A DNA stretch of 25,182 nucleotides from a virus, in the IMG/VR virus record IMGVR_UViG_3300043411_000987, positions 1 to 25,182 of that record. One strand, 5' to 3'. Positions 4,101 to 24,349 of this stretch are shown here, piece by piece. A program made the translations under genes and the position numbers. Within the stretch, counting starts at the first letter, position 1. Each line of letters begins with the position of its first letter. The notes beneath the pieces were generated by a model that saw only the letters and a list, made by a program, of their open reading frames with translations, searched no databases and was not told the DNA's origin.

Positions 4101-5258
4101 CGGGTCTTCGACGGAGAGGTTGAGGAAATGGAACCAGGCGTAAGAGGGCTGCAGGCTCGGCTGGTTGGGCGGGTTGTGGAGCCAGTAGTAATCGGTTACG
4201 GCGGCGGGCTTGACGTGGTAATTGCGCTGCAGGACGGTGCTCGCCGTCATGGTATTGGGCTGCTGCTTCTGGGCGTCCGAGACGTGGCTGGTGTACTGCG
4301 TGCGGAGCACGTTGAGAAGGGTGATCAGGGTGGCGAGGTTCGTGGCAGCCGTAGAGGCGGTTACGGCGGAGGCCTGGGCGGTCAGGTCGGCGTGCGTAAC
4401 GTGGGCCTTGGTCGAGACGGTTTCGACCGTGCCGGCGGCCGCGCCGTTTGACCCGTAGTGCGCGATCATCTGCGTGCGCAGATCATTCGCCAGGGAAATG
4501 GCGAGGGCCAGGCCCCCGTCCGTCGGGGTGAGGTCAGCGATCCCGGCCGTATACGCGCCAAAGATGGGCAGGCCCGCGGTGCGCAGCTGCATCGTACCCG
4601 CTGCGTCGCGGTACATTTTAATCGGTGGGGAGTTCGTCGCTAATATGGTATGGACGCCTGCTTGCGAGCCGCTCGTATTGATCGCGGATCCGCCGGACGT
4701 TGCGGAGAGTTGGAAGGTATTCGTGGCTGTGCTAACCACGTAGTAGGTCGTGCCAACAGCGAGGCCGGTGGGGAGCGCCCCGGTCGTCGATAAAAGTACA
4801 GACGCTCCGTTCGGAAGCCCGTGCGCGGCAGCGGTCCAAACCCCAGGGGAGGCGATCGTTACGGTGCCAGTTATAACTGGTGTGCTGGTAGCAGCATAAA
4901 GGTGCTTGTTCCACTGGTCGACCTCAACCAAGGATGCGGCACCATTCCAAGGGAAGGCGGAGAGGCTGTTCGGGCCCGTAACTTCAGCCCACGCGCCGGT
5001 CGCGTCGATGATGTTTGCCTTCTTGTTCTGGAAGGCGAGCAGCTCTGAGTCTGCGTTGAAAGAAACCAGACGGGCGACTCGTTCCGCCGCCGATAGTTGG
5101 TAGGCGGTCGAAGAAAATATGTCCAGGCCGTCGCGCGAGTACAACTTCTTGTCCCCATCAATAAGCACGTTATCAGCAACAGCCACCCTGTTTGTGACCC
5201 CGGGGATATTCTTGTCGGTCAGCCCGCCGTCGAAAAGCGTAAAGTCTGCTGGCTTCAT
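1158..5258 (-). CDS. Giant mosaic tail nozzle / beta-propeller protein with helical repeats
   Basis: This 1366-residue protein is the largest in the window. Residues 1-120 and about 740-1200 look like the two parts of a phage stabilisation/nozzle-type propeller (P22 gp10 or T7 gp12 class), with short beta repeats such as N-D-T-V-Y-Y-V-K-G-N-R-L-Y and N-G-I-F-F-A-G-K-D-G-F-Y-F. Residues about 125-206 form a separate beta module (A-H-G-L-P-N-G... T-G-L-A-V-G-T-T-Y-Y-V... N-T-F-Q-L-S) that recurs in phage tail proteins and often matches the FCCH-like family. Residues 248-670 carry six degenerate helical repeats of the form L-xx-L-R-xx-Y-xx-H. Family members without insertions are roughly half this size. 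The start has AAAGGA upstream and its ATG overlaps the stop of the HNH gene (ATGA). A receptor-binding role for the insertions is inference. Confidence 0.72.
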   Translation of the reverse strand: MKPADFTLFDGGLTDKNIPGVTNRVAVADNVLIDGDKKLYSRDGLDIFSSTAYQLSAAERVARLVSFNADSELLAFQNKKANIIDATGAWAEVTGPNSLSAFPWNGAASLVEVDQWNKHLYAATSTPVITGTVTIASPGVWTAAAHGLPNGASVLLSTTGALPTGLAVGTTYYVVSTATNTFQLSATSGGSAINTSGSQAGVHTILATNSPPIKMYRDAAGTMQLRTAGLPIFGAYTAGIADLTPTDGGLALAISLANDLRTQMIAHYGSNGAAAGTVETVSTKAHVTHADLTAQASAVTASTAATNLATLITLLNVLRTQYTSHVSDAQKQQPNTMTASTVLQRNYHVKPAAVTDYYWLHNPPNQPSLQPSYAWFHFLNLSVEDPLFSVPTDAKIAVVLQYLNDLRDKWNWHQYSTLTHFNAWRYKGSESYTQLGVHATALARVEPYSWAKITPPLSPLVQYVQDLKTEFDAHRGSDMHHQLDTVTAIPAGIDSTPDDIWECVTLLGWLAHAIQLHSGDAITPSSQVKADSTSGSNVLSSGTSPTTNSLRDFWCIPLVGSGVSPFSWKLDFTRMPRLTSYRVTANTSAVSITCASNFGVTDANIQYLFTASQYHLSGATTITGFTGTGAAALSDRFNAIDYRLLSSAELDRLATLAETVAATLKTHALVGLEPFEAAEFAAYNQYSVYGGLQYTRYKNTSGFGEFAFTAALGTSVLTHMHPSVEPILETASNSGAIFYPVSAASGSGFPETHFTDTVPEGVSINYRMLFKYSYSVGSVAFEDRSTPSTPINVLGYANRAAGGSTEKGKFSTELSNIYVFANAANQNYAIADTTNWRKEIYRTIDSGQLYYRVDVNAVVGDISNATTTFSDYSQDTYLVDQLGLYTNGGVVENDAPPLATALCEFNDTVYYVKGNRLYQSVQGDPDSVPGDFFVQFPEDLIGVAATKSNVVAFSVDKVWRISGARDEFGQGEILKDVIFNRTGAISAASIVRADNGIFFAGKDGFYFTDGYQCMRVTDLEDTFRRYTDSSSKRSRVSGSYDNVSKRVYWTVQTDSGSSPNSIWVLDLQFGIKADSTPITTFSALYGFNPTALTFHSGILHYGDADGYTWKQTLDRAIDLHKDTAVAATSWSAATIVWDVKSCHHDYGTAALRKYYTRVAAQFEQVDTNLSVQINSDADKGRSISSLPVIRSRKLATAAGYGDSKFDWIGDIYTTKPGDTIDEFRWFKGDGFLRSNFRAVQFTNAYTVIANSTEMGTLTIGNVAGLVWSATLVSLVLTRKWPLYSVDYYLRVAGVDYPVTVRSSDSVIRFDSTGLTSPATGAPASWELWGKPKGERMRLISYTVLYDLNDDQQTDYKGDVTSGGTNA

Positions 5259-5782
5259 GCGCGACTTTCCTTTGAGATGCGGCCTATAGTGATAACGCTA
5301 ATATCAAAAATTTTTGCCAGGGCTCTGGACACAAAAGCACCCTTGCCCCTCTGTCTCACATAGAAAAATCGCACGGCTGCGCGCTCTTCAGGAGTAAGGA
5401 GATTCTTTCCAGTAGGAGACTTCTTCCGAAGTCCCATCGCCTTGGCGTGCTCCGCATTTCCTTTTGGCGTGCACATTTCTAAATTACAAACTCGATTGTC
5501 ACCCCTGATTGCATTTTTATGGTTGACCTCGAGTTCCGCGGAAAAAGAACTCAGAAACGCCTCACAGACCAAGCGATGCACAAGCTTGGTTTTACAATCC
5601 AGGGTTGTTAAAATGTACCCGTTCTTAATTCTGGAGTTCATAATTCTGCCCTGGTGGCGGGCAGGGTACATAAAGCCACGCCTACTAAGTCGCATAGTTG
5701 TCCTGTCAACGGACCTCACGCGACCAAGGCTTGACGCCTCATAGCCAGGGCAGCTCGGTATTTCTTTCCAAATCTCGGTCAC
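5255..5782 (-). CDS. NUMOD4/HNH homing endonuclease
   Basis: This 175-residue protein starts with a NUMOD4 segment (W-K-E-I-P-S...G-Y-E-A-S-S-L-G-R-V-R-S, residues 5-24). An HNH_3 nuclease core follows: V-H-R-L-V-C-E-A-F-L (68-77), E-V-N-H-K-N (85-90), then D-N-R-V-C-N-L-E and C-T-P-K-G-N-A-E-H-A up to 113. His69, His88 and the Asn residues expected for metal and DNA binding are present, so it looks intact. The C-terminus (130-172) has a helix-turn-helix-like stretch for target recognition. The GTG start shares bases with the TGA of the upstream lipoprotein gene, and its own TGA overlaps the next ATG. It is a free-standing selfish endonuclease with no intron or intein visible. Confidence 0.9.
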   Translation of the reverse strand: MTEIWKEIPSCPGYEASSLGRVRSVDRTTMRLSRRGFMYPARHQGRIMNSRIKNGYILTTLDCKTKLVHRLVCEAFLSSFSAELEVNHKNAIRGDNRVCNLEMCTPKGNAEHAKAMGLRKKSPTGKNLLTPEERAAVRFFYVRQRGKGAFVSRALAKIFDISVITIGRISKESRA

Positions 5783-6165
5783 TGTGCCCCCGGGTCGAGT
5801 GCGTTGAGTTTACGGTCCCAGCTCTTAATGTATTTATCGCAATCGTTACGCTTGCACTGCTTAATTATATACGCCTTGAGCTCTGCCCATGAGGACGCGG
5901 GGAGAAGAACCATATAATTTCTCCGTTCCCACCAAGTCTTGGGCTTGTCGTCTCCGGGCAATTGGGCCGGGTGAAGCTCGTCAATTTCCCAATCCTTGTC
6001 AGTCACAGTGTTCGTGCAGAACCCTTTGGTCATATTTAGCTCGATGCAAATGGCCACATCAGGAACCGTGGCGCAGGAGCACATCAACAGCATTACGCCC
6101 ATGGAAATGAGCAGAAGCAAGAAAGGGCGCTCAATTCGTAAGTTTAGCGAATGCCTTGAACGCAA
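5779..6165 (-). CDS. Predicted lipoprotein
   Basis: The protein has 128 residues with an N-region rich in Arg (R-S-R-H-S-L-N-L-R), a hydrophobic core (F-L-L-L-L-I-S-M-G-V-M-L-L) and a lipobox-like M-C-S-C around residue 31. Lipidation at the second Cys fits best because Ser precedes it. The mature part has four more Cys and a Trp-rich W-W-E-R-R motif. I chose the TTG at 6165 because AGAAGGAG lies seven bases upstream and it supplies the positive N-region. Internal starts have no ribosome binding site and would lose the charges. The first 35 bp lie inside the preceding gene. It could be an outer-membrane spanin subunit (Rz1-like), since small membrane genes surround it, but it is larger than typical Rz1 and not Pro-rich. 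Confidence 0.65.
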   Translation of the reverse strand: MRSRHSLNLRIERPFLLLLISMGVMLLMCSCATVPDVAICIELNMTKGFCTNTVTDKDWEIDELHPAQLPGDDKPKTWWERRNYMVLLPASSWAELKAYIIKQCKRNDCDKYIKSWDRKLNALDPGAQ

Positions 6166-6496
6166 CGATCAGCTCCTTCTCTGCTTTCTCTTTGGCCACC
6201 GGGTCAGATCCTTTTTGGGCTTCTAGGTTCTTGCGCATCACCTCCTCAAACTCCCGGCCCTGGGCCGAAGTCCTTAGATCGATATAAAGAAAGAAAGCAC
6301 CAATCTCCGTCTCTCGAATGGCTATCTCGAGAACCTTGCCGACGAGGAACCCGAAGATCGGATTCAGCAGCATCCCGACAAAGCCGGTCGTCATCCCTGC
6401 GGGAAGTTGGGCCAGGAGCAGAGGAAGAATCTGCTTCTTGCCCAAGGACAGCACGGTGCTCTTTAGGAGCTCTACGTACTCGTCCCGCGAGGACAC
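6131..6496 (-). CDS. Small hydrophobic/amphipathic protein, possible membrane or lysis protein
   Basis: The product has 121 residues. Residues about 20-62 are strongly hydrophobic (I-L-P-L-L-L-A-Q-L-P-A-G then G-M-L-L-N-P-I-F-G-F-L-V-G-K-V-L), followed by an acidic/basic helical tail with many Lys and Glu. The start is GTG, one base after the TAA of the previous gene, with no good Shine-Dalgarno, so reinitiation after the upstream gene is likely. Its 3' end overlaps the lipoprotein start by 35 bp. The hydrophobic patch could form a hairpin in the membrane, as in some holins, but this is only suggested by context. I do not recognise the family with certainty. Confidence 0.6.
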   Translation of the reverse strand: MSSRDEYVELLKSTVLSLGKKQILPLLLAQLPAGMTTGFVGMLLNPIFGFLVGKVLEIAIRETEIGAFFLYIDLRTSAQGREFEEVMRKNLEAQKGSDPVAKEKAEKELIVAFKAFAKLTN

Positions 6497-6704: not shown

Positions 6705-6880
6705 TATTTTTGGTCCTCCTGTGACCGTTTTTTGAGAAGAGGGGCGAGAATGAGCTCGATGGCGGAAGCGGCCTGCACCTTATTGGTGCGACCGAGCCAG
6801 AACTCTAATATGGCATACGCAACAGCACAGCCGGCGTAAATTACTTCCTTGTTTCCGAGTAAAACCTGGCACGCATCCAT
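6704..6880 (-). CDS. 58-residue single-pass membrane protein
   Basis: This small gene begins with M-D-A-C-Q-V-L-L-G-N-K-E-V-I-Y and has one predicted membrane span (about residues 13-29, V-I-Y-A-G-C-A-V-A-Y-A-I-L-E-F-W-L). A conserved-looking L-G-R-T-N-K-V-Q-A-A-S-A-I-E-L-I follows and the tail is charged (K-K-R-S-Q-E-D-Q-K). AAAAGGAG lies six bases before the ATG, which is strong support despite the short length. The stop overlaps the next ATG by one base, and the first 40 bp overlap the 3' end of the ligase-like gene. Charge distribution and neighbours make a holin-like or accessory lysis protein possible; this is inference. Confidence 0.7.
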   Translation of the reverse strand: MDACQVLLGNKEVIYAGCAVAYAILEFWLGRTNKVQAASAIELILAPLLKKRSQEDQK

Positions 6881-7992
6881 GCGGCACTCCTTTTAAATGG
6901 CAAAAATTTGGGCGAGCGTCCAAAGCGCTGCGTACAGCGTGACCAAAATAATAGCAAACGAAGCCAAGTCTCGCACTCCCTAATTCTACCATCCCGCTCG
7001 CTAAGTATCCACCCAGCCGAGAACAGCGTACCCGTAGCCGCCAGGTGGAGGGGGAAATTGCCTATGGCGTTGACCAAGAGGGCGGCGACCATAGCGTGGT
7101 GCCAGGTAAAGCGAAAGCGCCACACAAACCTCGCGAGCGCGGCCAGGATCAGAGCCCCGCCAATACGCCCGTATTCGACCAGGAGCTCGAGGAACTCGTT
7201 ATGGACGTGCGATACCCCTTGGTTCAAATAGACGAATTTAGCGGGCTGCCAGGAGCCCGTACCCCAGCCAAAGATCGGCCGGCCAAGGTGCGCCTCCCAG
7301 GCGATTCCCCACAATGCCTCCCGCCTGGTCATGGAGAAAAGCGGATTCCCCGGGTCGAAGAAGTAGCCGATCGCGGCCCCAACGACCACCAGGACGGCCA
7401 AGGTTTGGGCCAGGTAGCGGTCGAAGTTCCACAGGCACAGCATAAAGACCGTCCCGCCCGCGACAAGGCTCATGGTGGAGCCCGTGGCCAGGATGCACGC
7501 TCCGATCAGCAGGGAAGCAATCCAATGCCCCCGGAACATGGCCGGAGCCAAGCAGGCGGCCAGGAGCGCGCCAAGGAGGGTTTCTTGGCCCTGGAGCCCG
7601 GTGGGCTTATAGGCAAACCATGGCTGGGAGAATCCGAATGGGTCCCACCCGAGCCACTGGGCCAGCCCGAAGACGGCCTGGACGGTGCCGAGACGCACGA
7701 TCCAGACGGGCAGGTCTTCCCAGTCACTCAGCCACTTCCCGGCGGCAATAGCGGCCGCAACGCAGACCAGGTGAAGCATGCCGTGCGGCTGGTAATCGCG
7801 CAGCACCCACATCACTCCGGCGTAGCTAAAAAGCAACGCTAGGGGGAGTCCGATGAGCTTTTTGGTGTATTTGTGGCTTATAAGCGCCGCGGTGAGGAGG
7901 AGGAATCTAAGCTGCCCCAGGCGCGTGTCATCCCGAACAGGCACCCAATCTATGGCGAAAAGGATGAAGAAGAGGGCCGCCGCCTGGAACAT
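6841..7992 (-). CDS. O-antigen ligase/polymerase family membrane protein (Wzy_C type)
   Basis: This 383-residue integral membrane protein has about ten hydrophobic segments. The signature of the O-antigen ligase/polymerase family is clear: M-T-R-R-E-A-L-W (221-228), P-I-F-G-W-G-T-G-S-W (239-248) and, after a periplasmic loop, H-V-H-N-E-F-L-E-L-L-V-E-Y-G-R-I-G-G (262-279). Family members join or polymerise undecaprenyl-linked O-antigen at the periplasmic face of the inner membrane. The last ~45 residues after the final span are Arg-rich and unlike the family; they overlap the small membrane genes downstream. The start codon has only a weak ribosome binding site. In phages such enzymes can change surface polysaccharide and block superinfection, but whether this one is a ligase or a polymerase cannot be told. 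Confidence 0.82.
   Translation of the reverse strand: MFQAAALFFILFAIDWVPVRDDTRLGQLRFLLLTAALISHKYTKKLIGLPLALLFSYAGVMWVLRDYQPHGMLHLVCVAAAIAAGKWLSDWEDLPVWIVRLGTVQAVFGLAQWLGWDPFGFSQPWFAYKPTGLQGQETLLGALLAACLAPAMFRGHWIASLLIGACILATGSTMSLVAGGTVFMLCLWNFDRYLAQTLAVLVVVGAAIGYFFDPGNPLFSMTRREALWGIAWEAHLGRPIFGWGTGSWQPAKFVYLNQGVSHVHNEFLELLVEYGRIGGALILAALARFVWRFRFTWHHAMVAALLVNAIGNFPLHLAATGTLFSAGWILSERDGRIRECETWLRLLLFWSRCTQRFGRSPKFLPFKRSAAWMRARFYSETRK
6893..6976 (-). CDS. Possible 24-27-residue transmembrane micropeptide
   Basis: A different frame inside the 3' end of the ligase-like gene reads R-D-L-A-S-F-A-I-I-L-V-T-L-Y-A-A-L-W-T-L-A-Q-I-F-A-I and stops just before the ribosome binding site of the next small gene. 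Almost the whole peptide is one membrane helix. It could start at GTG 6976, or at TTG 6967, which has GGGAG eight bases upstream. Tandem placement just upstream of another tiny membrane gene supports it. The alternative is that the frame is accidental, because the overlapping gene is itself hydrophobic nearby. Confidence 0.35.
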   Translation of the reverse strand: MRDLASFAIILVTLYAALWTLAQIFAI

Positions 7993-8226: not shown

Positions 8227-8757
8227 TTAAATTTCCCGGCAAGTAACGGTTAGGTGCGTTCCGCTTAACGAAGTGCCCTGCCTACCAAAAAACTTCTCAG
8301 CGGGAACGTCAAACGAAACACCGAAGTAAGCCGGAACTAAGGAGTAAAACGTGTGAACGTACTGCCCTGCTACGTTGCTCTCATAAACAGGGTTAGTTAA
8401 GCTTCCAGTGGTTGCATCATGCGCAAAGGTCGCGTCAGCGTACATAAGCTGAAAGCTGGAGTTTGCCGCACTTGTCTGTCCAGAAATTCCGTAGCACTTA
8501 GCAGTCTTACCGGCTGTCACCTGGTACTTTACGCCGTTCTTAATGAACGGAGATACGTTGCCGTTCGTCCCCTCGCCGTAGGATATTACGGTGAACCAGC
8601 CCAGAGAGTTTGAGCCATCGGCAATTACCAGCGGCTGCATCTGTGTAGTGGTGGTTGACTGATGGCCCATGCTAATCGCAGGGAGCCCGCTTGGAACAGA
8701 AACAGCAAATGCCTGAAGTGAAAACAGAAGACTAAGAACGCTTAGAAAATTGACCAT
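8227..8757 (-). CDS. Secreted small protein linked to the fibre
   Basis: The 176-residue protein begins with a typical Sec signal peptide (M-V-N-F-L-S-V-L-S-L-L-F-S-L-Q-A-F-A, probable cleavage after residue 18). The mature part is beta-rich, full of Ser, Thr and Gly, with just two Cys (88 and 173) that could form a disulphide outside the cytoplasm. GGGAG lies six bases before the ATG, and the first 16 bp overlap the end of the fibre gene. Position directly after the fibre is where phages often keep a fibre tip or assembly protein. I do not recognise the family; a tip, adhesin or periplasmic partner are all open. Confidence 0.7.
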   Translation of the reverse strand: MVNFLSVLSLLFSLQAFAVSVPSGLPAISMGHQSTTTTQMQPLVIADGSNSLGWFTVISYGEGTNGNVSPFIKNGVKYQVTAGKTAKCYGISGQTSAANSSFQLMYADATFAHDATTGSLTNPVYESNVAGQYVHTFYSLVPAYFGVSFDVPAEKFFGRQGTSLSGTHLTVTCREI

Positions 8758-10412
8758 AAGGTACTCCCGTTTGAAATTAATTCTACTCCCGACTTTGGAA
8801 GACCGCCGCTGGGTAGAAGAATTGAAGTGTCGCCGTCGAATGTATCGCTGCCGTTCGGTGCAACGGTGCAGGTGTCTGCGCCGATATTCTTCACCCTGTA
8901 AGCCTTCGCAGTAGCGGTGGCAGCAGAGTGCATGGTTATCGTAATTGGGGTTCCCGCCGTGGCGTTGCAGAGGATTACGTCCTCTGAGTTGGTAACTGTG
9001 TAGTCAGCCGTCTTGGTCACGACGGAGAGTGTAGACCCAGCAGCGGCGACCCAGGAAGGCGCAGCGGCCCCGTTTGATTGCAGGATCTGCCCCGAGGTTC
9101 CGGCAGCGATCACCTCCATGGAGTCGGCATCAGTCCAAACCACGCCACCATTGACGGCGGTCATGTTCTTGTTCGTGCCACCGTTGGCGAGAGGTAAGAC
9201 TCCCGAAACGTCGGCGGTCAGAGAGGCAGCAGAGCAGGTCAGATCCCCGTTCGCAGCAATCGCCGTGGCCTTAGTTCCGACGCTGCAATCCGCAGGGTTC
9301 GCGGCCAGGGCGGTCGCAGTCGAGGCGTTTCCAGTCAGGGCAGCCGTGATCGTTCCAGCGGCGAAGTTACCAGACCCGTCCCTGAGAACAATCGTGCTGT
9401 TTCCAGCCAAAGCAGATGCCGTGGTCGACGCGTTCGTAATTGAGGCGCAGGTAAGGTTCCCGCTCGCGGCGATCGTGGTGGCGTAAGTGTCTGAGGCGCA
9501 GTCAGAAGGATTCGCGGCGAGTGCCGTGGCCGTATCGGCGTTGCCGGTCACGTTTCCGGTGAGTGAGGAAGTTACGCCGTTAAACGTAGCCGCCCCGGCA
9601 ATATCAATCTTTGCTAGTACTGTGGTGTTGTCCGTATCGCGGAGACGAATGAAATCCCCAGTTTGGGACGTCATCTTCTGAATCGCAAGAGAGTGGCGAG
9701 CAACTTCACCAGCGTTGTTTTTGATCCCAAAGTTTACGTCTGATGGAAACCCGCTAGGACCGGCAGCAATCCCCCCCGTAGCCTTCATGCCGAAACCGTA
9801 GACGGCTTGAGCGGGGTTATAGAAAGTCAGCTCTCCAATAGGAGAATCGTACAGGAGCCACTCAGAGTTTGCGGCTCGGCCCTGTCCCCAAAGAACAAGG
9901 TTTCCCCGGAGAGAGTCGCCGACATTCGTCAGGTCTAGAGTTCCCGAAGGAACTGCTGTACCTATACCAAGACGGTTGTTTGTGTCGTCGAAGAAAATTG
10001 AGGAGTTGTCCTCGGAGAGCACCCCACTCGCACCAGCGAATAGAACCGATCCAACCGTAGGCGCGTAGAACGTCGGAGCCCCCGCGCCGCCAGAGACTAC
10101 GGCCTGGCCACTCGTTCCTGCTGCGGTGACTTCCAGGGAATCGGCATCAGAGTAGACCAACCCGCCATTGGCTGCGGTCATGTTCTTGTTCGTGCCGCCG
10201 TTGGCCAGGGGGAGAACGCCAGTAACGTTCGAAGTAAGATCCGCCTGCCCGCTCGTCATTACCCCACTGGCGTCGAGCTTGCACATTCCAGCAGACTGCA
10301 ACGCCGCCGGAATCCATTTTACGGTCGTGCCGGAAAAAAAGACTGGAGCCCCGTGCCCGTAGGCCAGGCTCGGAAGCAGGAGGACCAGGAGAATAAGATT
10401 CTTGAGCATCAT
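8742..10412 (-). CDS. Fibre-like repeat protein with signal peptide
   Basis: The start is the first of two adjacent ATG codons, overlapping the TGA of the previous gene (ATGA), giving 556 residues; a longer upstream frame has no ribosome site. Residues 1-19 form a signal peptide (M-M-L-K-N-L-I-L-L-V... S-L-A-Y-G). The rest is beta-structured and repetitive. A ~60-residue module with V-L-P-L-A-N-G-G-T-N-K-N-M-T-A occurs at 57-115 and again at 398-456. A Cys-pair module (T-A-T-A-L-A-A-N-P-x-D-C ... L-T-C) occurs at 294-322 and 367-393. The C-terminal ~95 residues (D-Y-T-V-T... V-K-N-I-G-A-D) resemble the end domain of phage fibres. No S74 chaperone domain is seen. It is likely a receptor-binding fibre or a surface-exposed relative. 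Confidence 0.75.
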   Translation of the reverse strand: MMLKNLILLVLLLPSLAYGHGAPVFFSGTTVKWIPAALQSAGMCKLDASGVMTSGQADLTSNVTGVLPLANGGTNKNMTAANGGLVYSDADSLEVTAAGTSGQAVVSGGAGAPTFYAPTVGSVLFAGASGVLSEDNSSIFFDDTNNRLGIGTAVPSGTLDLTNVGDSLRGNLVLWGQGRAANSEWLLYDSPIGELTFYNPAQAVYGFGMKATGGIAAGPSGFPSDVNFGIKNNAGEVARHSLAIQKMTSQTGDFIRLRDTDNTTVLAKIDIAGAATFNGVTSSLTGNVTGNADTATALAANPSDCASDTYATTIAASGNLTCASITNASTTASALAGNSTIVLRDGSGNFAAGTITAALTGNASTATALAANPADCSVGTKATAIAANGDLTCSAASLTADVSGVLPLANGGTNKNMTAVNGGVVWTDADSMEVIAAGTSGQILQSNGAAAPSWVAAAGSTLSVVTKTADYTVTNSEDVILCNATAGTPITITMHSAATATAKAYRVKNIGADTCTVAPNGSDTFDGDTSILLPSGGLPKSGVELISNGSTLWSIF

Positions 10413-10861
10413 CCCACCAAAATTGCGAGCACTTCGCCCGAGTTGATTGCGGCGTTTCTCATGGCTCGGACCCAAAGTTTATTTCCAGAGGAAAGGCTGA
10501 CCCCAAAAACTTCTTCCCCGCCTTCATGGCAGACCCCGAGAGGGGCCGCAGCGGCCGCCGCTGTGGCGTCTGCGCCGGCGGCGAATACCAGGGGGGCTCC
10601 CGTGTGGTTCCGGACCCGGAGCGCCGTGCAGGTGTTGGCGATGTTGGCGATCGTGGCCATCTCAATGAACGCACCAGCTGAGGCATTGATGTTCGTTACA
10701 GCTGTGTCGTGAAGACGGTGCTCTTTGAAGGCTAGCTCCGAGAAGGTGGCCGTGACTGGCACCGCGACGGTGTTCGCGACGTTCACGTCCATGCAGTTCT
10801 TGGCGCCTACCGTGGTGCCGGTGACGAACAGTTTCAGGTTTTTTAACCAGAGTGGCGTCAT
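10409..10861 (-). CDS. Small beta-rich structural protein
   Basis: The protein has 150 residues with no signal peptide and a beta-rich composition, including an Ala-rich stretch (G-A-D-A-T-A-A-A-A-A-A-P-L) about two thirds in and the ending S-G-E-V-L-A-I-L-V-G. It shares the ending style S-G-E-[VL]-x-I with the next protein upstream, so the two may be distant relatives. The start at 10861 has only a weak ribosome site and lies 4 bp after the preceding stop. It is probably a virion component near the fibre attachment site; the exact role is unknown. Confidence 0.6.
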   Translation of the reverse strand: MTPLWLKNLKLFVTGTTVGAKNCMDVNVANTVAVPVTATFSELAFKEHRLHDTAVTNINASAGAFIEMATIANIANTCTALRVRNHTGAPLVFAAGADATAAAAAAPLGVCHEGGEEVFGVSLSSGNKLWVRAMRNAAINSGEVLAILVG

Positions 10862-10865
10862 GGCG

Positions 10866-11195
10866 TTACCCGAAGAAGTTAATCACGAGCTCGCCGCTCG
10901 TTACGTTTTGGTCCAGGGCCTTGGCCGAAATTCTAAAACTTCTGGAAAGCTCGAGGGGGATCAGCCCGGAATTCATCCCAGGGGTAAGATAGAGGGGAAG
11001 ATCCACCTCTGCAGCCGCGGCACCTTTGGCCAGGATGAGAATCCCCTCCCCGGTGTAGGACACCGAGATAGCGGTGCAGCCTGCGGGCATGGAGTCTTCA
11101 ATCTCGCGGTAGGCCGACGTGAGGATCGTGGCACCAGAAATGTCATGGCGAATTTTATGAACCGGCACCGAGGCCAGTAAATCCCGGACGCCCAT
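10866..11195 (-). CDS. Small structural protein of a phage-common beta family
   Basis: The protein has 109 residues. It contains segments such as Y-R-E-I-E-D-S-M-P-A-G-C, I-S-V-S-Y-T-G-E-G-I-L-I-L-A-K-G and S-G-E-L-V-I-N-F-F-G. I recall this pattern (a strand, G-E-x-L-x-L-A-x-G-A-A, then a closing S-G-E-L-x-x-N-F-x-G) from structural genes of environmental podoviruses, with no assigned role. Its ATG overlaps the TAA of the preceding gene (TAATG) with GGGAG eight bases upstream, so it is translationally coupled. It probably forms part of the neck or fibre base. Confidence 0.65.
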   Translation of the reverse strand: MGVRDLLASVPVHKIRHDISGATILTSAYREIEDSMPAGCTAISVSYTGEGILILAKGAAAAEVDLPLYLTPGMNSGLIPLELSRSFRISAKALDQNVTSGELVINFFG

Positions 11196-11650
11196 TAGAT
11201 TTGCTCCCAGAGGAACTTAAAGGTGAGGCTGTCCGCAGCGTACGTGGGCGTACCCGACCGCACAACCCCAGCCACCCAAAGGCTTTTGGACTTAACCTTG
11301 GCCCCCAGGAGCATATCGAGCTGCTTTGTCGCGTAAGCATTGGCGTTCCCGGAAACATAGTCCGCAGCCGCGACACGGACGTGCCCGATAAAAGGCCCGA
11401 ACTCAGCATCTGACATGGCCAGGGCTGCGTTGGCCGCGCCAAGGTTTCCCGGGTCTTCCGTGAAGAAAAGAAGGTCGATCGCCTGCTTCTGATCGGCCAG
11501 ATCCTGAACCACCAGGGTTCGGAGCTTGGCCAGGCCCTTCGTATCGAGAACCACGTTCTGGAGTTCAACCGGAACAAACAACACGTCGGCATCGGCGTAA
11601 ATGGCGGTGTCCAAGGTGGGTGTGAGCGTGATCAAAGATCCGTCTCTCAT
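11195..11650 (-). CDS. Structural protein of unknown function
   Basis: The protein has 151 residues, acidic and beta/alpha mixed, with no Cys and no signal peptide. The ending L-T-F-K-F-L-W-E-Q-I and a middle section D-L-L-F-F-T-E-D-P-G-N-L-G-A-A-N-A-A-L suggest a folded virion protein. It is the first gene after a short hairpin, with GAGG nine bases before the ATG, and is coupled to the next gene by a TAATG overlap. Position between capsid and fibre genes suggests a head-completion or neck protein, but I do not recognise it. Confidence 0.6.
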   Translation of the reverse strand: MRDGSLITLTPTLDTAIYADADVLFVPVELQNVVLDTKGLAKLRTLVVQDLADQKQAIDLLFFTEDPGNLGAANAALAMSDAEFGPFIGHVRVAAADYVSGNANAYATKQLDMLLGAKVKSKSLWVAGVVRSGTPTYAADSLTFKFLWEQI

Positions 11651-11671
11651 CGGGTAATCCTCGTAATCAAA

Positions 11672-11689
11672 TGGGCCATCCGTGGCCCA
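11672..11689 (-). terminator. Intergenic hairpin after the decoration-like gene
   Basis: A perfect 7-bp stem (TGGGCCA / TGGCCCA) with a 4-base loop lies in the 48-bp gap downstream of the decoration-like gene. On the transcribed (minus) strand it is followed by TTTGATT, a poor U-tract, so partial termination or mRNA 3'-end protection is more likely than full stop. Confidence 0.45.
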
Positions 11690-11698
11690 AGAGAGCTT

Positions 11699-12247
11699 TT
11701 AGCGGCTCAGAATGTAGTAGATCCACACGTTGATCTCACCCGCCACAACGGCGAGGGTGGAGATCCGCATGGACGGCGTATAGTTCTCGGAAACAGTCGG
11801 GAGCTTGATTGCGGTAGCTGCGCTTCCGACCGGGGTACAGGCTTTGAGGCCCGAAGGAGTATAGGCAGAGGTGAACCCTGCTTCTCCTTTTAGGTCCGCG
11901 CCCAAGATTCCGGTGCTGAAGCTGATCGAGGTCGTATTCAAGCCCGAGGTATTCGGCGCGGTGATTACGTCCAGGAGACAGTCCACGATGATCGCCCCTT
12001 TTGGAAGTTGGGCGGCTTTCCCGTCCACGTCCAGGAGCTCGTGGTTCCCGATCGCTCCGCCTTGTACGGCGTAGCTCCACTTGCCGCGCAGAGCATGGAC
12101 TTTTTTCTCCTGAAGCTGCGTGCCGAGTTGCACGCGCGCGCCTACAGGGGAAAGGTCCAGTTCGTCACGGATATCGTTGTGGCCGGGAAATGCCCCCAAG
12201 GCTGGGAGCGCGGTCAGCATCAAAAACAAACTAAGAAAACTTTTCAC
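11699..12247 (-). CDS. Capsid decoration-like protein with N-terminal signal peptide
   Basis: The 182-residue protein starts at GTG with GGAGG four bases upstream. Residues 1-19 look like a complete signal peptide (M-K-S-F-L-S-L-F-L-M-L-T-A-L-P-A-L-G-A). The mature body has the layout of a phage structural family often found just after the capsid gene: a Y-A-V-Q-G-G-A-I-G strand, L-P-K-G-A-I-I-V-D..L-D-V-I-T, S-I-S-F-S-T-G, then G-S-A-A-T-A-I-K-L and V-V-A-G-E-I-N-V-W-I-Y-Y. Those relatives, as I recall, have no signal sequence. It follows the capsid gene across a strong hairpin. It could be a head decoration protein with an unprocessed hydrophobic tip, or a version re-directed to the envelope. 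Confidence 0.65.
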   Translation of the reverse strand: MKSFLSLFLMLTALPALGAFPGHNDIRDELDLSPVGARVQLGTQLQEKKVHALRGKWSYAVQGGAIGNHELLDVDGKAAQLPKGAIIVDCLLDVITAPNTSGLNTTSISFSTGILGADLKGEAGFTSAYTPSGLKACTPVGSAATAIKLPTVSENYTPSMRISTLAVVAGEINVWIYYILSR

Positions 12248-12275
12248 GAAACCTCCGATAAAGGGTGAAGGATTA

Positions 12276-12298
12276 GGGGCGGCCGTTTAAGCCGCCCC
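12276..12298 (-). terminator. Strong GC-rich hairpin after the major capsid gene
   Basis: An 8-bp perfect stem (GGGGCGGC / GCCGCCCC) with a 7-base loop lies 8 bp beyond the capsid stop codon. On the minus strand it is followed by TAATCCTT, with no long U-run, so it is either a leaky terminator or a stabiliser of capsid mRNA. It separates the capsid gene from the decoration-like gene. Confidence 0.6.
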
Positions 12299-12305
12299 AA
12301 ACTCC

Positions 12306-13547
12306 TTAGTAGCTGATGCTGTGGATGATACCGCAGTAGCTTGGGCGCTGAACGATGAGCTCTCCGAAGAGGCACATGTCAACGATGTACGAGAAGCCGG
12401 TCGTCGCACGGACTTCGAAGTATTCGATGCCGTCAGGCGAGCGACGCTTCTTGAAGAAGCCGTTCGAGTAGAACTTGAGGGCTCTCCAGTCGATGAGCAT
12501 GATCACGTCGTTGTCGGCTTCCTGAACACCAACGAGCTTGATCGCGCCCTTGGTTACGGAGCCAACTTCGATCTCGGTCCAGCCGTACTGCGAAGCACGC
12601 TGCGAACCAGGAACCACGTTGAAAGCACCTTTCGATGCTTCGATGCGCTTCATACAAGAAGCGAGGTTCGTGTAGCTCATCACGAAATCGGTTGGGTTGC
12701 CCTTACCGAATTGACGAACCGTGGTCAGAGCGTCGAACAGCTTCTCCATGATGTTGGAAGCAGTGATCGCCGCGCCCGAGACGTTGATCGCCTGGAGGTA
12801 TGGGTAGAGCGTCTTGGTCACGCCGTAGAGGGTAGAGTCCCCGCCGTTGGCAGCCGAGAGCAGCGCGCCGCGAAGCGAGCTGAACGAAGCAGTGTCGGCA
12901 CCGTCGTTGTAAACCTTGGCTGCTTGAGCCACGGTGTACGCCGAGATATCGAGAGGGGTTGCGCCGCCGCGAGCCGTCACCACGTTCACCACTTTGGTGT
13001 TCATGTTGATCGTCTTCACGTAACCGGCAGCAGACACCGTAGTGTTGCCGTCGATGAAGAAAACCTTCTGGCCGATCTGGTAGCGGTCCGGACGGGTCGC
13101 GGTGAAGTTACCGGAGGCGTCACCGTCACCCAGGAGGATGTCGAAGTGCGCGCCGTTCAGGAGGTTCACGGAAACCACGTTCTTCATGTAGTCCATGAAG
13201 TCTTCGATCGTGCCAGGGAGGATCTTGAGGAAGTTCTGTTCGTTAACAGACTCATGCTCCATCAGATCGCGATGGTTGAAGATGAGGGAGCCCCATACTT
13301 CTTTGTGGCCCGAAACACCCCCGCGGACGAACTTGTCTTCCGCGATATCGGTGGATCCGGTTAGAGCGCCGAAAGCTACCGAGCTTGCGCCAGCGGCCTT
13401 AAACGGAACGACCAGGTTTCCGCCGAGCCAGGAGTTATCCTTCTCGACCTTGGAGAGCAGGTAGTCGCGCTTTACGAATTCTTCTTTGAGGAGCTCGTTG
13501 GGGAGATACTCGTTGAGCATGTCCTGAAATGTACGGGTTGTACCCAT
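12306..13547 (-). CDS. Major capsid protein
   Basis: This 413-residue protein lies directly after the scaffold gene and before a strong hairpin, the standard place for the major capsid. The N-terminus (T-R-T-F-Q-D-M-L-N-E-Y-L-P) is helical. A segment with G-S-L-I-F-N-H-R-D-L-M-E-H and a long helix (E-D-F-M-D-Y-M-K-N-V-V-S-V-N-L-L-N-G) fits an HK97-type E-loop and spine-helix layout. A beta insertion around residues 155-200 is likely. The ending is beta-rich (F-S-Y-I-V-D-M-C-L-F-G-E-L-I-V-Q). AAGGAAGGGA precedes the ATG by about ten bases. The call rests on gene order and general layout. Confidence 0.85.
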   Translation of the reverse strand: MGTTRTFQDMLNEYLPNELLKEEFVKRDYLLSKVEKDNSWLGGNLVVPFKAAGASSVAFGALTGSTDIAEDKFVRGGVSGHKEVWGSLIFNHRDLMEHESVNEQNFLKILPGTIEDFMDYMKNVVSVNLLNGAHFDILLGDGDASGNFTATRPDRYQIGQKVFFIDGNTTVSAAGYVKTINMNTKVVNVVTARGGATPLDISAYTVAQAAKVYNDGADTASFSSLRGALLSAANGGDSTLYGVTKTLYPYLQAINVSGAAITASNIMEKLFDALTTVRQFGKGNPTDFVMSYTNLASCMKRIEASKGAFNVVPGSQRASQYGWTEIEVGSVTKGAIKLVGVQEADNDVIMLIDWRALKFYSNGFFKKRRSPDGIEYFEVRATTGFSYIVDMCLFGELIVQRPSYCGIIHSISY

Positions 13548-13583: not shown

Positions 13584-14627
13584 TTATTGGCCAGTCATCT
13601 TCGCGTGGATTTTCCGCAGATCGTCCAGGGATTTGGGAGGGCTCTTTGCAGGAGTCGTCGCAGGTTTCCCGGTGCCTACATTCGGCAGTACGATTTTGGG
13701 CGGAGTGGCTGGCGTGGCCTGCTGTGCAATCTGTGCGGGGGCTGCCTGTTGAGGCGGCTTCGCAGCGGATCCCAAAAGGGCTGCAGCACGTTCTGCTGCT
13801 TCCATCGGGGAAAGCACTTTTCCAGTGCGGGAAAATTCAAATTCTCCCATCTGGACCGCCAAGTCGCGAAACGTCGGAGGTACTCCGGGCGCTTTCGTTC
13901 TGGCGTCATACTCTTGAGCGAGAGAGCTGTAGTCAGGCCGCTCTAAAACCAGATCGAGCATTTGCATGATTTGCTCGGACTGGGCTTGCAGTTGCTCCTG
14001 AGATTGTGAGGCTTGTGTGCGCTCGAGCTCCCAGTTGCGTCGTTCTGCTAATTCGCGAGCCTCGTGGACCTGGCGTTGGTCCGGGGGCATCTGGCTCAAT
14101 TGTACCTTGCGCACCGCCCACTGCAAGACTTTATTTTCGTCGATCCGAAACGTCTTGAACACGGTATCGAGGTCCCCGCGCTGATAGGCTTCCCGGCCCA
14201 TCTGCACAGTACTCATCACCTGGCCGTGGGCCTGGTTGAGCTGCTGATGCTCCTGGCGGAGGCCCTGGAACCGCTCTTTCACGGTGTCGATGCCGTACGC
14301 CTTCTCGAAAAGCTGGTGGAGGAATTTCTGGCTCTGCTCGTCCTTGATCACGCCGCGCAGGAACTCAGGGATTTCATGCTCCTTGTTCGCCGCCTTGAAT
14401 TTGAAACTAGGCGTGAACGCAGGGGCCGCGGGCACTACAGGAGGCTTCTCGGCGGAAGGCGCTACGGTGCCTTTTTCTCTGATTTTTTCGTGGAGCGTTT
14501 TTTCAGGAACCACCGGCGCGGGAGCGGCGGGGTTCCCAGGGGGGAGGGATGCTTGCTGGGCGGTTTGTCCTGCGTCTTCATTGAGGGAGGGGGTTACTTC
14601 CAATGGCAATTCCGTTTGCAGATCCAT
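13584..14627 (-). CDS. Capsid scaffolding protein
   Basis: The 347-residue protein is Gln-, Glu- and Ala-rich and predicted mostly helical, with a Pro-rich flexible N-terminus (1-70) and C-terminus (280-330). The coiled-coil region (about 115-260) contains many Gln repeats such as S-Q-S-Q-E-Q-L-Q-A-Q-S-E-Q-I. The basic C-terminal helix (L-R-K-I-H-A-K-M-T-G-Q) matches the coat-binding end of known scaffolds. It lies between portal and capsid genes. It begins inside the last 50 bp of the portal gene with AAAGGA seven bases before its ATG. No protease domain is visible. Confidence 0.82.
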   Translation of the reverse strand: MDLQTELPLEVTPSLNEDAGQTAQQASLPPGNPAAPAPVVPEKTLHEKIREKGTVAPSAEKPPVVPAAPAFTPSFKFKAANKEHEIPEFLRGVIKDEQSQKFLHQLFEKAYGIDTVKERFQGLRQEHQQLNQAHGQVMSTVQMGREAYQRGDLDTVFKTFRIDENKVLQWAVRKVQLSQMPPDQRQVHEARELAERRNWELERTQASQSQEQLQAQSEQIMQMLDLVLERPDYSSLAQEYDARTKAPGVPPTFRDLAVQMGEFEFSRTGKVLSPMEAAERAAALLGSAAKPPQQAAPAQIAQQATPATPPKIVLPNVGTGKPATTPAKSPPKSLDDLRKIHAKMTGQ

Positions 14628-16767
14628 TTGCTAGTCCTTTGTCCATTTCCGTGGACGGTGTCGAAGGCGAGCGGTCTTGCCCACCTTCCGCCGAACTGCC
14701 AGCTTTGCCGGCAATCTGGGCCAGGTTTTCCTGGTTCATTTTTTCCATGGCCTCGAGCGTCTGCCCTTGGCCTTCCATTCTTTCGATCAACCAAGTGAGA
14801 GCGCCCGAGGGAACCCGCACCTTCTGGTCTTTCGTCCCGCCCGTGGAGTTGGGAACCTGGATATAGAAATCCGTGCTCACCAAGTACCCAGTGGTCGGGA
14901 TCAGTTCGTTTTTTGCGTCCTGAATTGCTTTGAGCTGCCGAGCCTGAATCTCCTGGTGGGCATCGAGGCGCTCGAGATAATTAATTCTGATCATGTCGTC
15001 CATGTACTCAAAGTCGGCCTGGCGCATGCGCTGCGTGAGGCGCTTGATCATATAGACGTGGTTATCGAACTCAGAGATCGCGGGTCGCTGCCCGCGGTCG
15101 AGCGCCAAGATATCGTTCGTCGCGGCCTCGTAGTCGATCGTGAGATCGGAGAAAGTTTCGTCGAGGTTCGAGTACGGCATCATCTTCATGATCTTGCCGA
15201 TATCCTCTTTACCCAGCTGAGCGGAGGTGTACTGCAGCGCCTGGCTGAGTACCATCTGCTTGCCCATCTTGGTTTCTAGGTCTTCCGCCTGCGCCTCAAC
15301 CTTGATCTTGTAGCAGAGCGGGTCCATCTGGCGGAACTCTTCGACGTTGACCTGCTCGTTCTTGCCGCACATCGCGACGATATCTTCGTCCGTGAAGTAG
15401 TAGCGCGCGAGCTCAAGGTACAGCTGCGCAAATTCCACCAGGAATTGCTCAAAGCGCGACACGTAGAGTTTGAACTTTTTCTTCTGCTTACCGGACCGAT
15501 AGATCAGCGCCATCGGGTCGACCTGGCCGCTCATGGGCTCTTCGCGCTCGTCCACATCCACCGCGTTGTACATTTCGGTGATGTTCTGCGTGAGGGTGGC
15601 GGTGTATTGGGAGCCGTCGCGGCCCTGCAGGACTTCCGGCTTCATGCCGGTGTAATTGAAGGAGCGGATCCCCGCGAGCACGCGGCCGTTGGTCAACTGC
15701 GTACCGTTCTGGATCAGGACCTTATCATCCCCAAGGGTGATCTGGTGCTCAGCGATTTTCGAGGCCGCGCGGTTGATCTCCGCCTGGAAAGGGCGAATCG
15801 TCTTGATGATCGCCTGGCCCCGGGCCTTTGTTTTCAGCTTCCGGAAGGGCTTGAAGATGATCGGAAACTTGCCGGCGGGGAGCTCCGACTCGAACAAGAT
15901 CTTCTCTTTTACGAAGTAGTAGACGTACCCATTGGGGTACTCGTAGCAGGGACGAAAGTACATCTTACGAAGGAGGCACTGGTCCTTGGTCTTCTGGTAG
16001 CCAGACTTTCCGCGGTCGAAAATCACGTACGTCTGGTCCGCTGACTCCTGGATATGGCGCTCGTTCTCTTCCCCAGGGAACATTTTCTTGAGATCGGCGC
16101 ACGGGACCATCTCTCTGATGGTCATGCGCTTGGCGGTCCGGTGGTCCGTGGCCGCGGAATCTATAATCAGGTTGAAACCGAAAACGGTCTTGGGCACCAG
16201 GTCGCCCTTGAATTTCGGCGTCATCTTGCCGTCTTCGCCCTGCTCCATCCCAAGGAAGGGGCCCGCCATGGGGTCGAAAGAAAGCAAAGTGGCCACTTCG
16301 CCGATCTGGGTGAAGTCCTCGGCCCAATCCTGGATCGTTTCATCGAATCCAAGGCGCTGCTTGGCCGATTCCCACACGCCCTTGTTCATTTCGGCCGCTT
16401 TTTGGTCCTGGAGCTCGGCTTTGTTCGCCGGAGAGAAGCCCACGCCCGGCGCGGTGCTCATAATGTGGTTCGTGTAGGCGTCCACGATCTTTTGGGTGTG
16501 GTTTTTCGTTAAACGGAGCTTTTGCTCCTCAGAAAGCGACTTTGAGTCGCGAACGCGCTTATAAAACGAAGATTTGAGCTTATTATAGTGGTCGCCGCTG
16601 TAAAGAAGCAGGTTTGAACGCTGTTCAGCGAAAAGTTCTTTGTCGACCTCTTCATCGCCTTGATAAAGAGCCTCCAGCTGCGAAATTGTGTGCTTGGCCT
16701 TGGGTTCTTCCGGCGGTTGCTGCTCGGGAGCTACCTGTTCAAGCGTCGTTTCCGTCATTCTCTGCAT
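14578..16767 (-). CDS. Portal protein (SU10/P22-like class)
   Basis: The 729-residue length fits the large portal proteins of short-tailed phages. An acidic Gln/Pro-rich N-terminus (1-30) precedes a helical wing (E-L-F-A-E-Q-R-S-N-L-L-L-Y-S-G-D-H-Y), the stretch K-N-H-T-Q-K-I-V-D-A-Y-T-N-H-I, a beta domain, and a long stem/crown helix region (about 390-480) with N-I-T-E-M-Y-N-A-V-D-V-D. The end (660-729) is Ser/Gly/Gln-rich and flexible. Twelve copies would form the DNA channel in the head. The start at ATG 16767 has GGAAG upstream; ATG 16758 is a possible alternative. It overlaps the upstream small gene by 29 bp and the scaffold start by 50 bp. Confidence 0.88.
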   Translation of the reverse strand: MQRMTETTLEQVAPEQQPPEEPKAKHTISQLEALYQGDEEVDKELFAEQRSNLLLYSGDHYNKLKSSFYKRVRDSKSLSEEQKLRLTKNHTQKIVDAYTNHIMSTAPGVGFSPANKAELQDQKAAEMNKGVWESAKQRLGFDETIQDWAEDFTQIGEVATLLSFDPMAGPFLGMEQGEDGKMTPKFKGDLVPKTVFGFNLIIDSAATDHRTAKRMTIREMVPCADLKKMFPGEENERHIQESADQTYVIFDRGKSGYQKTKDQCLLRKMYFRPCYEYPNGYVYYFVKEKILFESELPAGKFPIIFKPFRKLKTKARGQAIIKTIRPFQAEINRAASKIAEHQITLGDDKVLIQNGTQLTNGRVLAGIRSFNYTGMKPEVLQGRDGSQYTATLTQNITEMYNAVDVDEREEPMSGQVDPMALIYRSGKQKKKFKLYVSRFEQFLVEFAQLYLELARYYFTDEDIVAMCGKNEQVNVEEFRQMDPLCYKIKVEAQAEDLETKMGKQMVLSQALQYTSAQLGKEDIGKIMKMMPYSNLDETFSDLTIDYEAATNDILALDRGQRPAISEFDNHVYMIKRLTQRMRQADFEYMDDMIRINYLERLDAHQEIQARQLKAIQDAKNELIPTTGYLVSTDFYIQVPNSTGGTKDQKVRVPSGALTWLIERMEGQGQTLEAMEKMNQENLAQIAGKAGSSAEGGQDRSPSTPSTEMDKGLANGSANGIAIGSNPLPQ

Positions 16768-17090: not shown

Positions 17091-18653
17091 TCAGCTTTCA
17101 TACATTGCGTTTGCTTCCGAGAAGTCGCAATCGAGCCCGTCGGCTTGTGCTTCTGCATCTATGTCCTCTCCCCGCCGCTGGCGGATCTCTTCCTCTTGAG
17201 GGGTTAGCTTTTTCTCAACCTTTTCCGGTGTATCGGCCGCGATATAGGTCGCCAGGATGGAGAAATCCCATGGGATGAAGGCGGAGATATAGCGGGTGGG
17301 GTCGATTACGTCGTCCTTACGCTTTCTCTTCGGGGTCGAAATCCCAAGCGAGCAGAGCTCGCCCACAAGCTTGCCGTTTTGCCCGCGCTGATAGATCGCC
17401 AACATGTCGAACTTGAACAAGGTGTTGAGGGTCTTTTCCCCTATCTCGTGATTTTTCTCGGCCGGGATCCACCCGCCCCCGTTTCGAGCCGCCATGATCT
17501 GGAACTCTGCGCTTCCCCAATCGTAAATCCTCGCAAGTGGCTGCACGCCGAACTCTTTGATCTGCTCGTCCGCAATTTTTAGGACATCGCCTGCAGTAGT
17601 ACGGATTCCATCCGTCCGGATACAGTCCACCACTCGAGCCTGCTGGTAGTCGGGCCGCACAGCCACCAGGACGATTCCACTGGGGTGCCCTTCGCCCTCC
17701 TCGCCATCCGTCCCGCTACCGATATCGACACCCTGGTACCAGAGGTACGATTTGGGGACCGGGTGCCAGGGCTTGACGTGCCGTTTAGCCTCGAACGTAG
17801 GGTAGACCAGGCCACTGTCTTTGATGAATTTTCCAAAAACCCTCCTCTGCACTTCGCTCGTATTGCGGCAAAGCGAAATAACGGCGTCGATACGCTCGTT
17901 CGTCCAAAGGGAGAGGGAGCCGTCGACGAATTTCTGGCAGTCGTACATCGACACCTGGCGCTTCCATGCGCCTGGGAATTTTTCTTCCTCGCCCTCCCCT
18001 GGCTCCAGTGCCTGACGCCACATTTCCTGCCCCAAGGTGGCGGTGAACGCCATGGAAATGTAGCCGTCCGTCGCCTGTACGCGCAGCATGAGCTCGCTCC
18101 ACAGGTCCACGGGGCACTCCTCGTCCAGGCAGAGGTAGTGCACGGTTGCGGTCTGAAGGGCAACCAACCCTTGTTTATAGGACTTAAAGTAAATGGTCGC
18201 GCCACTATTGAAGTAGATGGCGAAAACTTCCTTGTTTTTGTACTCGACCTTCCACCCGTACTTAGCGTCGTCCTTAAACTCCCCCCTTGGTAAATACTGC
18301 GGCTCCCACTTCTCCTGAAATTCTACGGTCGCCTGGGTGGCCGTGGGGTAGAAGTAGAAGATCGTAGGCCCCTTCTTGTTCTCGGGGTCGATCTTCATCT
18401 CCTGAGAGGCCCGGGGCCAGAGCTCAGACCAAAGCGTTGATTCGGTGGCCCAGTGGATGGCCCGGCGAATCTGCGCGGTCGATTTTCCGATTTGGTTGGC
18501 GGCGCAGATCAGGGCGAGCTTGTTGCGGGTTTCTAGGAACTCCAAAGACCAAGGGTAATGCTTGTACCCATGGAGGTACGGGAGCCCCCTTTTCAGGCGC
18601 AATTCCGCTTCCCGCAGCTCCAGCTTTTGCTTGAGCAGCTCGAAGTCGCTCAC
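17091..18653 (-). CDS. terL: Terminase large subunit (packaging ATPase/nuclease)
   Basis: The 520-residue protein has both expected domains. The ATPase part shows a Walker A of the A-A-N-Q-I-G-K-S-T form (51-59), Walker B L-C-L-D-E-E (174-179) and coupling motif F-T-A-T-L-G (203-208). The RNase H-like nuclease part has V-D-I-G-S-G-T-D (309-316), R-I-Y-D-W-G-S (375-381) and a third acidic pair near K-D-D-V-I-D. It cuts concatemeric DNA and pumps it through the portal. Its ATG overlaps the upstream stop (ATGA). The motifs look intact. It is the strongest anchor for phylogenetic placement in this window. Confidence 0.95.
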   Translation of the reverse strand: MSDFELLKQKLELREAELRLKRGLPYLHGYKHYPWSLEFLETRNKLALICAANQIGKSTAQIRRAIHWATESTLWSELWPRASQEMKIDPENKKGPTIFYFYPTATQATVEFQEKWEPQYLPRGEFKDDAKYGWKVEYKNKEVFAIYFNSGATIYFKSYKQGLVALQTATVHYLCLDEECPVDLWSELMLRVQATDGYISMAFTATLGQEMWRQALEPGEGEEEKFPGAWKRQVSMYDCQKFVDGSLSLWTNERIDAVISLCRNTSEVQRRVFGKFIKDSGLVYPTFEAKRHVKPWHPVPKSYLWYQGVDIGSGTDGEEGEGHPSGIVLVAVRPDYQQARVVDCIRTDGIRTTAGDVLKIADEQIKEFGVQPLARIYDWGSAEFQIMAARNGGGWIPAEKNHEIGEKTLNTLFKFDMLAIYQRGQNGKLVGELCSLGISTPKRKRKDDVIDPTRYISAFIPWDFSILATYIAADTPEKVEKKLTPQEEEIRQRRGEDIDAEAQADGLDCDFSEANAMYES

Positions 18654-24147: not shown

Positions 24148-24349
24148 AGTGCCAAAGTGCCGGTCGTTTTTAAGAACCTTTGTATATGCTCCCATAAAGC
24201 CCAGGGGAATATTCCTATACTCTCTTAAAAAGATTATAGGCACTTTGGCACTTTGGCACTCTGGAGCCCTCCAACCCCTTGGAGTTATTGGACCCCGGAT
24301 CAAGTGCCAAACTCACATTTTGATCTCTGAAGTGCCAAACTCTGGCACT
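24148..24349. repeat. Iteron-like GTGCC repeat region, candidate origin or operator
   Basis: Eight copies of GTGCC/GGCAC lie in about 200 bp. AGTGCCAAAGTGCC at 24148-24161 is an exact inverted copy of GGCACTTTGGCACT at 24239-24252, and a third tandem 8-bp unit follows to 24260. More copies are at 24303-24312 and at 24331-24349, where AGTGCCA-5-TGGCACT forms a perfect hairpin just inside the helicase gene. The 77 bp between the arms are AT-rich and hold a GGAATATTCC palindrome (24206-24215). An exact minus-strand TATAAT (24238-24233) touches the triple repeat. Iterons around an AT-rich stretch beside a replicative helicase suggest an origin; an operator for the small gene is the alternative. 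No convincing gene is seen in the gap 24090-24312. Confidence 0.6.

Follow-up and report, generated by a model that had tools for sequence, protein, structure and literature searches.

We analysed a 25,182-base virus record (IMG/VR record IMGVR_UViG_3300043411_000987, hereafter the window), whose minus strand bears a head-and-tail operon with three Sec-type leaders: on dec182, a predicted capsid cement protein, on a tail fibre, and on a small protein, p176. The operon runs in the order terminase, portal, scaffold-like gene, major capsid gene, dec182, p151, p109, p150, fibre, p176. The features on which the argument turns are listed here with their basis.

17091 to 18653, minus strand: terminase large subunit (phrog_2, E = 3.6e-18)
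14578 to 16767, minus strand: portal protein (phrog_156, E = 2.4e-12)
12306 to 13547, minus strand: major capsid protein, the anchor for comparison (relatives; position behind portal and scaffold)
12191 to 12247, minus strand: dec182 Sec-type leader MKSFLSLFLMLTALPALGA (n-h-c pattern, Shine-Dalgarno, orthologue leaders)
11699 to 12190, minus strand: mature dec182, predicted capsid cement protein (profile match, model, Foldseek, gene after the major capsid gene)
10356 to 10412, minus strand: fibre Sec-type leader MMLKNLILLVLLLPSLAYG (n-h-c pattern; the fibre of the related locus L002 also has a leader)
8742 to 10355, minus strand: mature tail fibre (sequence reading; segments common to related fibres and to proteins like mosaic adhesive trimers, MATs)
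8704 to 8757, minus strand: p176 Sec-type leader MVNFLSVLSLLFSLQAFA (n-h-c pattern, lowest score of the three)
8227 to 8703, minus strand: mature p176, probably beta-rich (model with a predicted local distance difference test score, pLDDT, of 46, not interpretable)

Leaders were called with a home-made scorer, which asked for an n-region whose charge was not negative, a hydrophobic core of at least 7 residues and small residues at positions -3 and -1. It recovered 13/14 Escherichia coli Sec leaders and returned a single positive among 90 virion-module genes of lambda, BPP-1, T7, P22, KHP30 and phi1402. That positive was Lom, an outer-membrane protein of lambda. Neither the lambda B leader nor the P22 gp7 cleavage, both annotated in the records, scored as a Sec leader. 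These controls agree with the premise of an earlier, sequence-only reading of the window that phage structural proteins normally lack leaders. When 21 minus-strand window proteins were tested, only dec182, the fibre, p176 and the lipoprotein p128 (LLMCSCA) scored 7 or above, and p72 scored 6.1. The pattern scored is that of a Sec preprotein: an n-h-c leader, small -3/-1 residues and no membrane helix beyond the leader. When the first 60 residues were shuffled, the threshold was reached in 1.0% of cases for dec182, 5.2% for the fibre and 1.3% for p176. Because 1-5% of shuffles attain it, a single leader is modest evidence, and conservation of the leader is a stronger argument than any one leader.

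dec182 (12247-11699, minus strand) has a GTG start behind a full GGAGGT Shine-Dalgarno sequence, and its N-terminus reads MKSFLSLFLMLTALPALGA, followed after the predicted cut by FPGH. A profile of 15 orthologues had one PDB match only, the BPP-1 cementing protein (3j4u_H, E = 0.022). The AlphaFold model of the mature protein reached a pLDDT of 86, and its top four Foldseek matches (7dou, 7eel_H, 8h89_J and 7dn2; E = 2.3e-5 to 1.4e-4) were cement or capsid chains of phages KHP40, Pam1, GP4 and KHP30, with modest fold scores (template modelling score, TM, 0.41-0.54; sequence identity 12-18%). The gene adjoins the major capsid gene in the window and in 19 related loci. Fold and place concur in identifying dec182 as a capsid cement protein, one that would bind the capsid, and they uphold the virion-like nature ascribed to it earlier.

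Relatives of the capsid protein were found in 72 IMG/VR contigs and 3 contigs from metagenome-assembled genomes. Among cultured phages, the capsid protein, the window fibre and two dec orthologues had no match, and the terminase found only remote terminases. With the window included, 9/20 dec proteins adjoining the capsid gene carry a leader: dec182 itself and 8 of its orthologues in the 19 related loci. The other 11, some of them near-identical, begin at the mature domain, about where the mature N-terminus of the exported forms would lie. Divergent orthologues have differing yet complete leaders at the same place (for example MKQLFSVLLLAMFAAQANA, MKFLLFSLTLLSALVVSPAQA, MKYFLISILAALSAATANA and MKKYCEGLYLAFVALALCASNVWA), and all dec leaders end in small -3/-1 residues (AQA, ANA, AFA, VWA, LGA) ~17-24 residues in. 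GGAGG-type sites lie upstream of the leader starts in the window, L002, L004 and L005. A start-codon artefact is unlikely given these sites and the leader-bearing orthologues.

No other head gene shared the trait. In the same scan, leaders were absent from orthologues of the capsid protein (0/75), portal (0/61), terminase (0/50) and scaffold (0/31). Across the window relatives, 0/435 genes as far as the capsid gene, itself included, scored, vs. 18/217 in the 4.5 kb that follow (Fisher p = 1.5e-9; the 18 are leader-scoring genes, with no virion role implied for every one). The comparison of homologues suggested by the sequence-only reading therefore showed a leader conserved among dec orthologues and confined to them among head genes, and its main observation, three minus-strand proteins with Sec-type leaders, was borne out by the scorer and, for dec, by this conservation.

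The dec leader requires three changes on the dec and capsid trees and is clustered round the window, and the fibre leaders require six on the capsid tree. The leaders were thus gained or lost as modules, independently for the cement protein and the fibre. The tree backbones are weakly supported, so that a single origin of the leader can be neither demonstrated nor excluded. Two loci hold two dec copies. In L049, tandem paralogues (11316-11849 and 11876-12385), one with and one without a leader, form a natural test pair and may divide the labour; in L074 both copies are leaderless.

The window fibre (10412-8742, minus strand) starts with MMLKNLILLVLLLPSLAYG, with HGAP after the predicted cut, and contains two CX16C motifs and two copies of LPLANGGTNK. 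Segments of it are common to the fibres of L002, L066, L023, L077 and L078. The L002 fibre, from the closest relative, also has a leader, as do those of L077 and L078, which are tailed-phage contigs with other gene contents. The only family match was weak, to phrog_5906 of unknown function (E = 0.0014), and a PDB sequence search gave chance matches to coenzyme A transferase only. Leader-bearing related fibres in L057, L048 and L006 match tail-fibre PHROGs, in keeping with the fibre-like nature proposed earlier, and the L057 fibre includes an S74 chaperone. A further comparison concerned 18 leaderless relatives that open with an N-terminal domain straight after Met. A hidden Markov model (HMM) of these 18 N-termini matched L048 and L057 from residues 23 and 25, respectively (E ~1e-14), starting ~2 residues past the predicted cut and spanning nearly all of the 44-position domain. 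This domain in L048 and L057 has an extra cysteine (Cys) pair (SCAPAVTC, TCVPATTC). By eye, the start of the leaderless L004 fibre, MSKAPVIYDGINARLL, is similar to that of the mature window fibre, GAPVFFSGTTVKWIP.

p176 (8757-8227, minus strand; MVNFLSVLSLLFSLQAFA, then VSVP after the predicted cut) has the weakest leader, with the lowest score (7.3) and an n-region without positive charge. Because our searches found no relatives and its structure model was unusable, we assign it no function, and it enters the proposed explanation by leader and position only.

The sequence-only reading had also described the mature parts as having few or paired Cys, which was only partly right. Among the exported dec orthologues, 9/9 carry either two Cys in the mature part or none (four with one pair position, three with another and two with none). 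dec182 has two (positions 90 and 137), as does p176 (88 and 173). The window fibre, however, has seven, an odd number (44, 305, 322, 376, 393, 482 and 515). Leaderless dec proteins have 0-3 Cys, with an even number in 4/10 (p = 0.011, kinship ignored). This parity would fit disulphides formed outside the cytoplasm, and is weak evidence alone. A general Cys enrichment in leader-bearing proteins was unconvincing (11.2 vs. 7.5 per 1000 residues over mixed proteins).

Several results point to a host among the Bdellovibrionota. A capsid protein 58% identical to that of the window lies in L075, a 212,865-base Bdellovibrionales contig whose dec has a leader. The locus looks integrated because its flanks resemble cation-efflux and other host genes. 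Capsid relatives occurred in 4/369 Bdellovibrionota genomes, whereas scans of 396 Acidobacteriota genomes and of 287 from a third phylum each gave the seed genome only. The window fibre matched proteins in 18/369 Bdellovibrionota genomes (best E = 2.5e-10) and in 3/199 Acidobacteriota genomes (best E = 5.9e-6). Where the start of these Bdellovibrionota proteins was visible, 5/6 distinct proteins scored as leader-bearing, and the domain after the leader looks by eye like the N-terminal domain of MATs (as in L107, L114 and L117). In the cultured Bdellovibrio phage phi1422 (L086), gp68 (4430-6274) and gp75 (8299-8811) carry leaders. Both lie inside the fibre cluster and are annotated only as hypothetical proteins, and gp68 had no sequence match to other phages. 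Leader-bearing virion-module genes numbered 2/30 in phi1422 vs. 0/108 in four sister phages of other hosts. The window host is thus probably a member of the Bdellovibrionota, judging from sequence, and the phage family and the leader trait are linked to this phylum, though not universally: leaderless relatives and phi1402 exclude a strict tie.

Two outcomes had been offered for the leader-bearing proteins, namely that they go to the envelope of the infected cell or that the virion acquires parts in the periplasm. Our results support export itself, while computation left the choice between them undecided. Still, the cement and fibre domains behind the leaders are otherwise normal, which favours the second. 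We infer that virion parts are exported via Sec and join particles outside the cytoplasm, the best reading of the data, to which we give a probability of roughly 45%. The cement protein and tail fibre, kinds that are leaderless in other phages, would be made as Sec preproteins, cross the Sec translocon and lose the leader. They would then fold in the periplasm, with disulphides where Cys are paired, and wait, while heads and tails were assembled and filled in the cytoplasm as usual. Once the inner membrane was breached at lysis, finished particles would meet the exported proteins and take them up in the periplasm or, should the host be a predator that grows within its prey, in the prey ghost. 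Export with late joining is the simplest reading because leader and normal virion domain are both kept. It is supported by the leaders and their conservation, the cement fold, the leader before a conserved fibre N-terminal domain, and the link to Bdellovibrionota. More tentatively, assembly in these phages may be a two-compartment process, with heads and tails made in the cytoplasm and with a cement protein and fibres that mature in the periplasm by way of Sec and join at lysis. Such a scheme would suit phages whose predatory hosts grow inside a prey ghost, where released parts stay together, and their genes could be the source of the predators' own exported MAT fibres.

Several points weigh against late joining of exported parts. 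Because capsids and exported proteins would be in separate compartments until lysis, joining must be late and is maybe inefficient. In L049, the second, leaderless dec copy could serve the capsid. Three other Bdellovibrionota relatives are leaderless in this part of the genome (in two of them the contig stops close by), none of the phi1402 virion genes has one, and the leaders themselves were called by a home-made scorer.

In the main rival reading, which is possible if somewhat doubtful, the proteins are not virion parts and instead belong to the envelope of the infected cell or lysogen, where cement- and fibre-like domains would act as adhesins, as a block to superinfection or as a cell coat. 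Host MAT adhesins are exported, phage-fibre-like and displayed on the surface (PMC10769870), and the leaders on 5/6 Bdellovibrionota proteins with window-fibre segments follow the same pattern. Phages also provide precedents, as Lom is exported though encoded among lambda tail genes and the phage-coded PblB of Streptococcus acts as an adhesin (PMC4508584). The pairing of one exported and one leaderless dec in L049 would suit this account as well. However, the exported dec gene has the same place immediately after the capsid gene as its leaderless relatives, its product retains the cement fold, and the domain behind the leader in L048 and L057 is the start domain of leaderless fibres of the same family. 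The window fibre, judged by eye, is also without the MAT-type N-terminal domain.

The remaining accounts concern the leader itself. It could be an uncleaved tether that anchors cement protein and fibres to the inner membrane for assembly, or a hydrophobic end used in ejection, and the hydrophobic cores have the length needed to cross a membrane. We consider this improbable, as the dec leaders show the classical signal peptidase I pattern with mature domains directly behind, and the Cys parity suggests an oxidizing compartment. That the leaders are chance hydrophobic N-termini or products of wrong start codons is very improbable. The shuffles, the home-made scorer, the isolated and weak p176 leader and a window fibre start without a clear Shine-Dalgarno sequence lend this view something, but it would have to accommodate nine leader-bearing dec proteins, the contrast between upstream and downstream genes, the GGAGG-type sites before four dec leader starts and classical phages that yield Lom only.

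The accepted view is that the virions of tailed phages are finished in the cytoplasm. A capsid cement protein with a conserved leader breaks this rule, and we found no report and no close case of leaders on cement proteins in the open-licence literature. The lack of signal peptides has even been used to argue that variable phage proteins derive from phages (PMC6199706). In annotation, a leader alone should not count against a virion role. Leader-bearing phage fibre genes also suggest a route by which Bdellovibrio-type predators could gain exported phage-like fibres. The question is directly testable in phi1422, which is cultured and has leader-bearing proteins in its fibre cluster.

Other minus-strand genes of the window are recorded here in their own right. 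One membrane protein (6841-7992), encoded inside the phage operon, has an O-antigen ligase domain (Pfam Wzy_C, E = 3.1e-11) and a relative in L002, and could change the surface polysaccharide of the host. A lipoprotein-like gene with an LLMCSCA lipobox (5779-6165) possibly encodes an outer spanin, and small genes nearby may be lysis genes. Between it and a 1366-residue tail-region gene is inserted an open reading frame (ORF) resembling an HNH endonuclease by eye (5255-5782). Near the window end, an ORF with a GEAQSGKST motif (24313-25152) looks by eye like a D5-type phage primase/helicase.

In filamentous and other membrane-assembling phages, virion proteins have signal peptides and pass through steps at the membrane or in the periplasm. 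By contrast, the window belongs to a tailed phage with a terminase and portal, in which DNA would be packaged into preformed heads. The cement proteins of BPP-1, Pam1, GP4 and KHP30/KHP40 share fold and capsid-gene neighbourhood with dec182; yet the virion genes of KHP30 and BPP-1, including the KHP30 gene behind the capsid gene, lack the leader that dec182 has. The gp68 and gp75 proteins of phi1422 are likewise leader-bearing products of a tail-fibre cluster in a tailed phage, but phi1422 is a myovirus with an unrelated capsid and no leader on a head protein. Lambda Lom and the streptococcal PblA and PblB are, as in the window, exported or surface proteins encoded among tail genes, and a signal peptide is predicted for PblB in one strain (PMC4508584). 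Lom, however, is a beta-barrel membrane protein rather than a cement protein or fibre, and the Pbl proteins exert their effect at the surface of the host cell. The MAT fibres of Bdellovibrio are host genes with a conserved, beta-rich domain of ~130 residues behind the signal peptide, whereas the window fibre is encoded in the head-tail operon of a phage and the domain is not evident in it by eye. Still, MATs are exported and phage-fibre-like, shaft and tip segments are common to the window fibre and MAT-like proteins, and the S74 chaperone of the L057 fibre likewise occurs in 13 MATs (PMC10769870).

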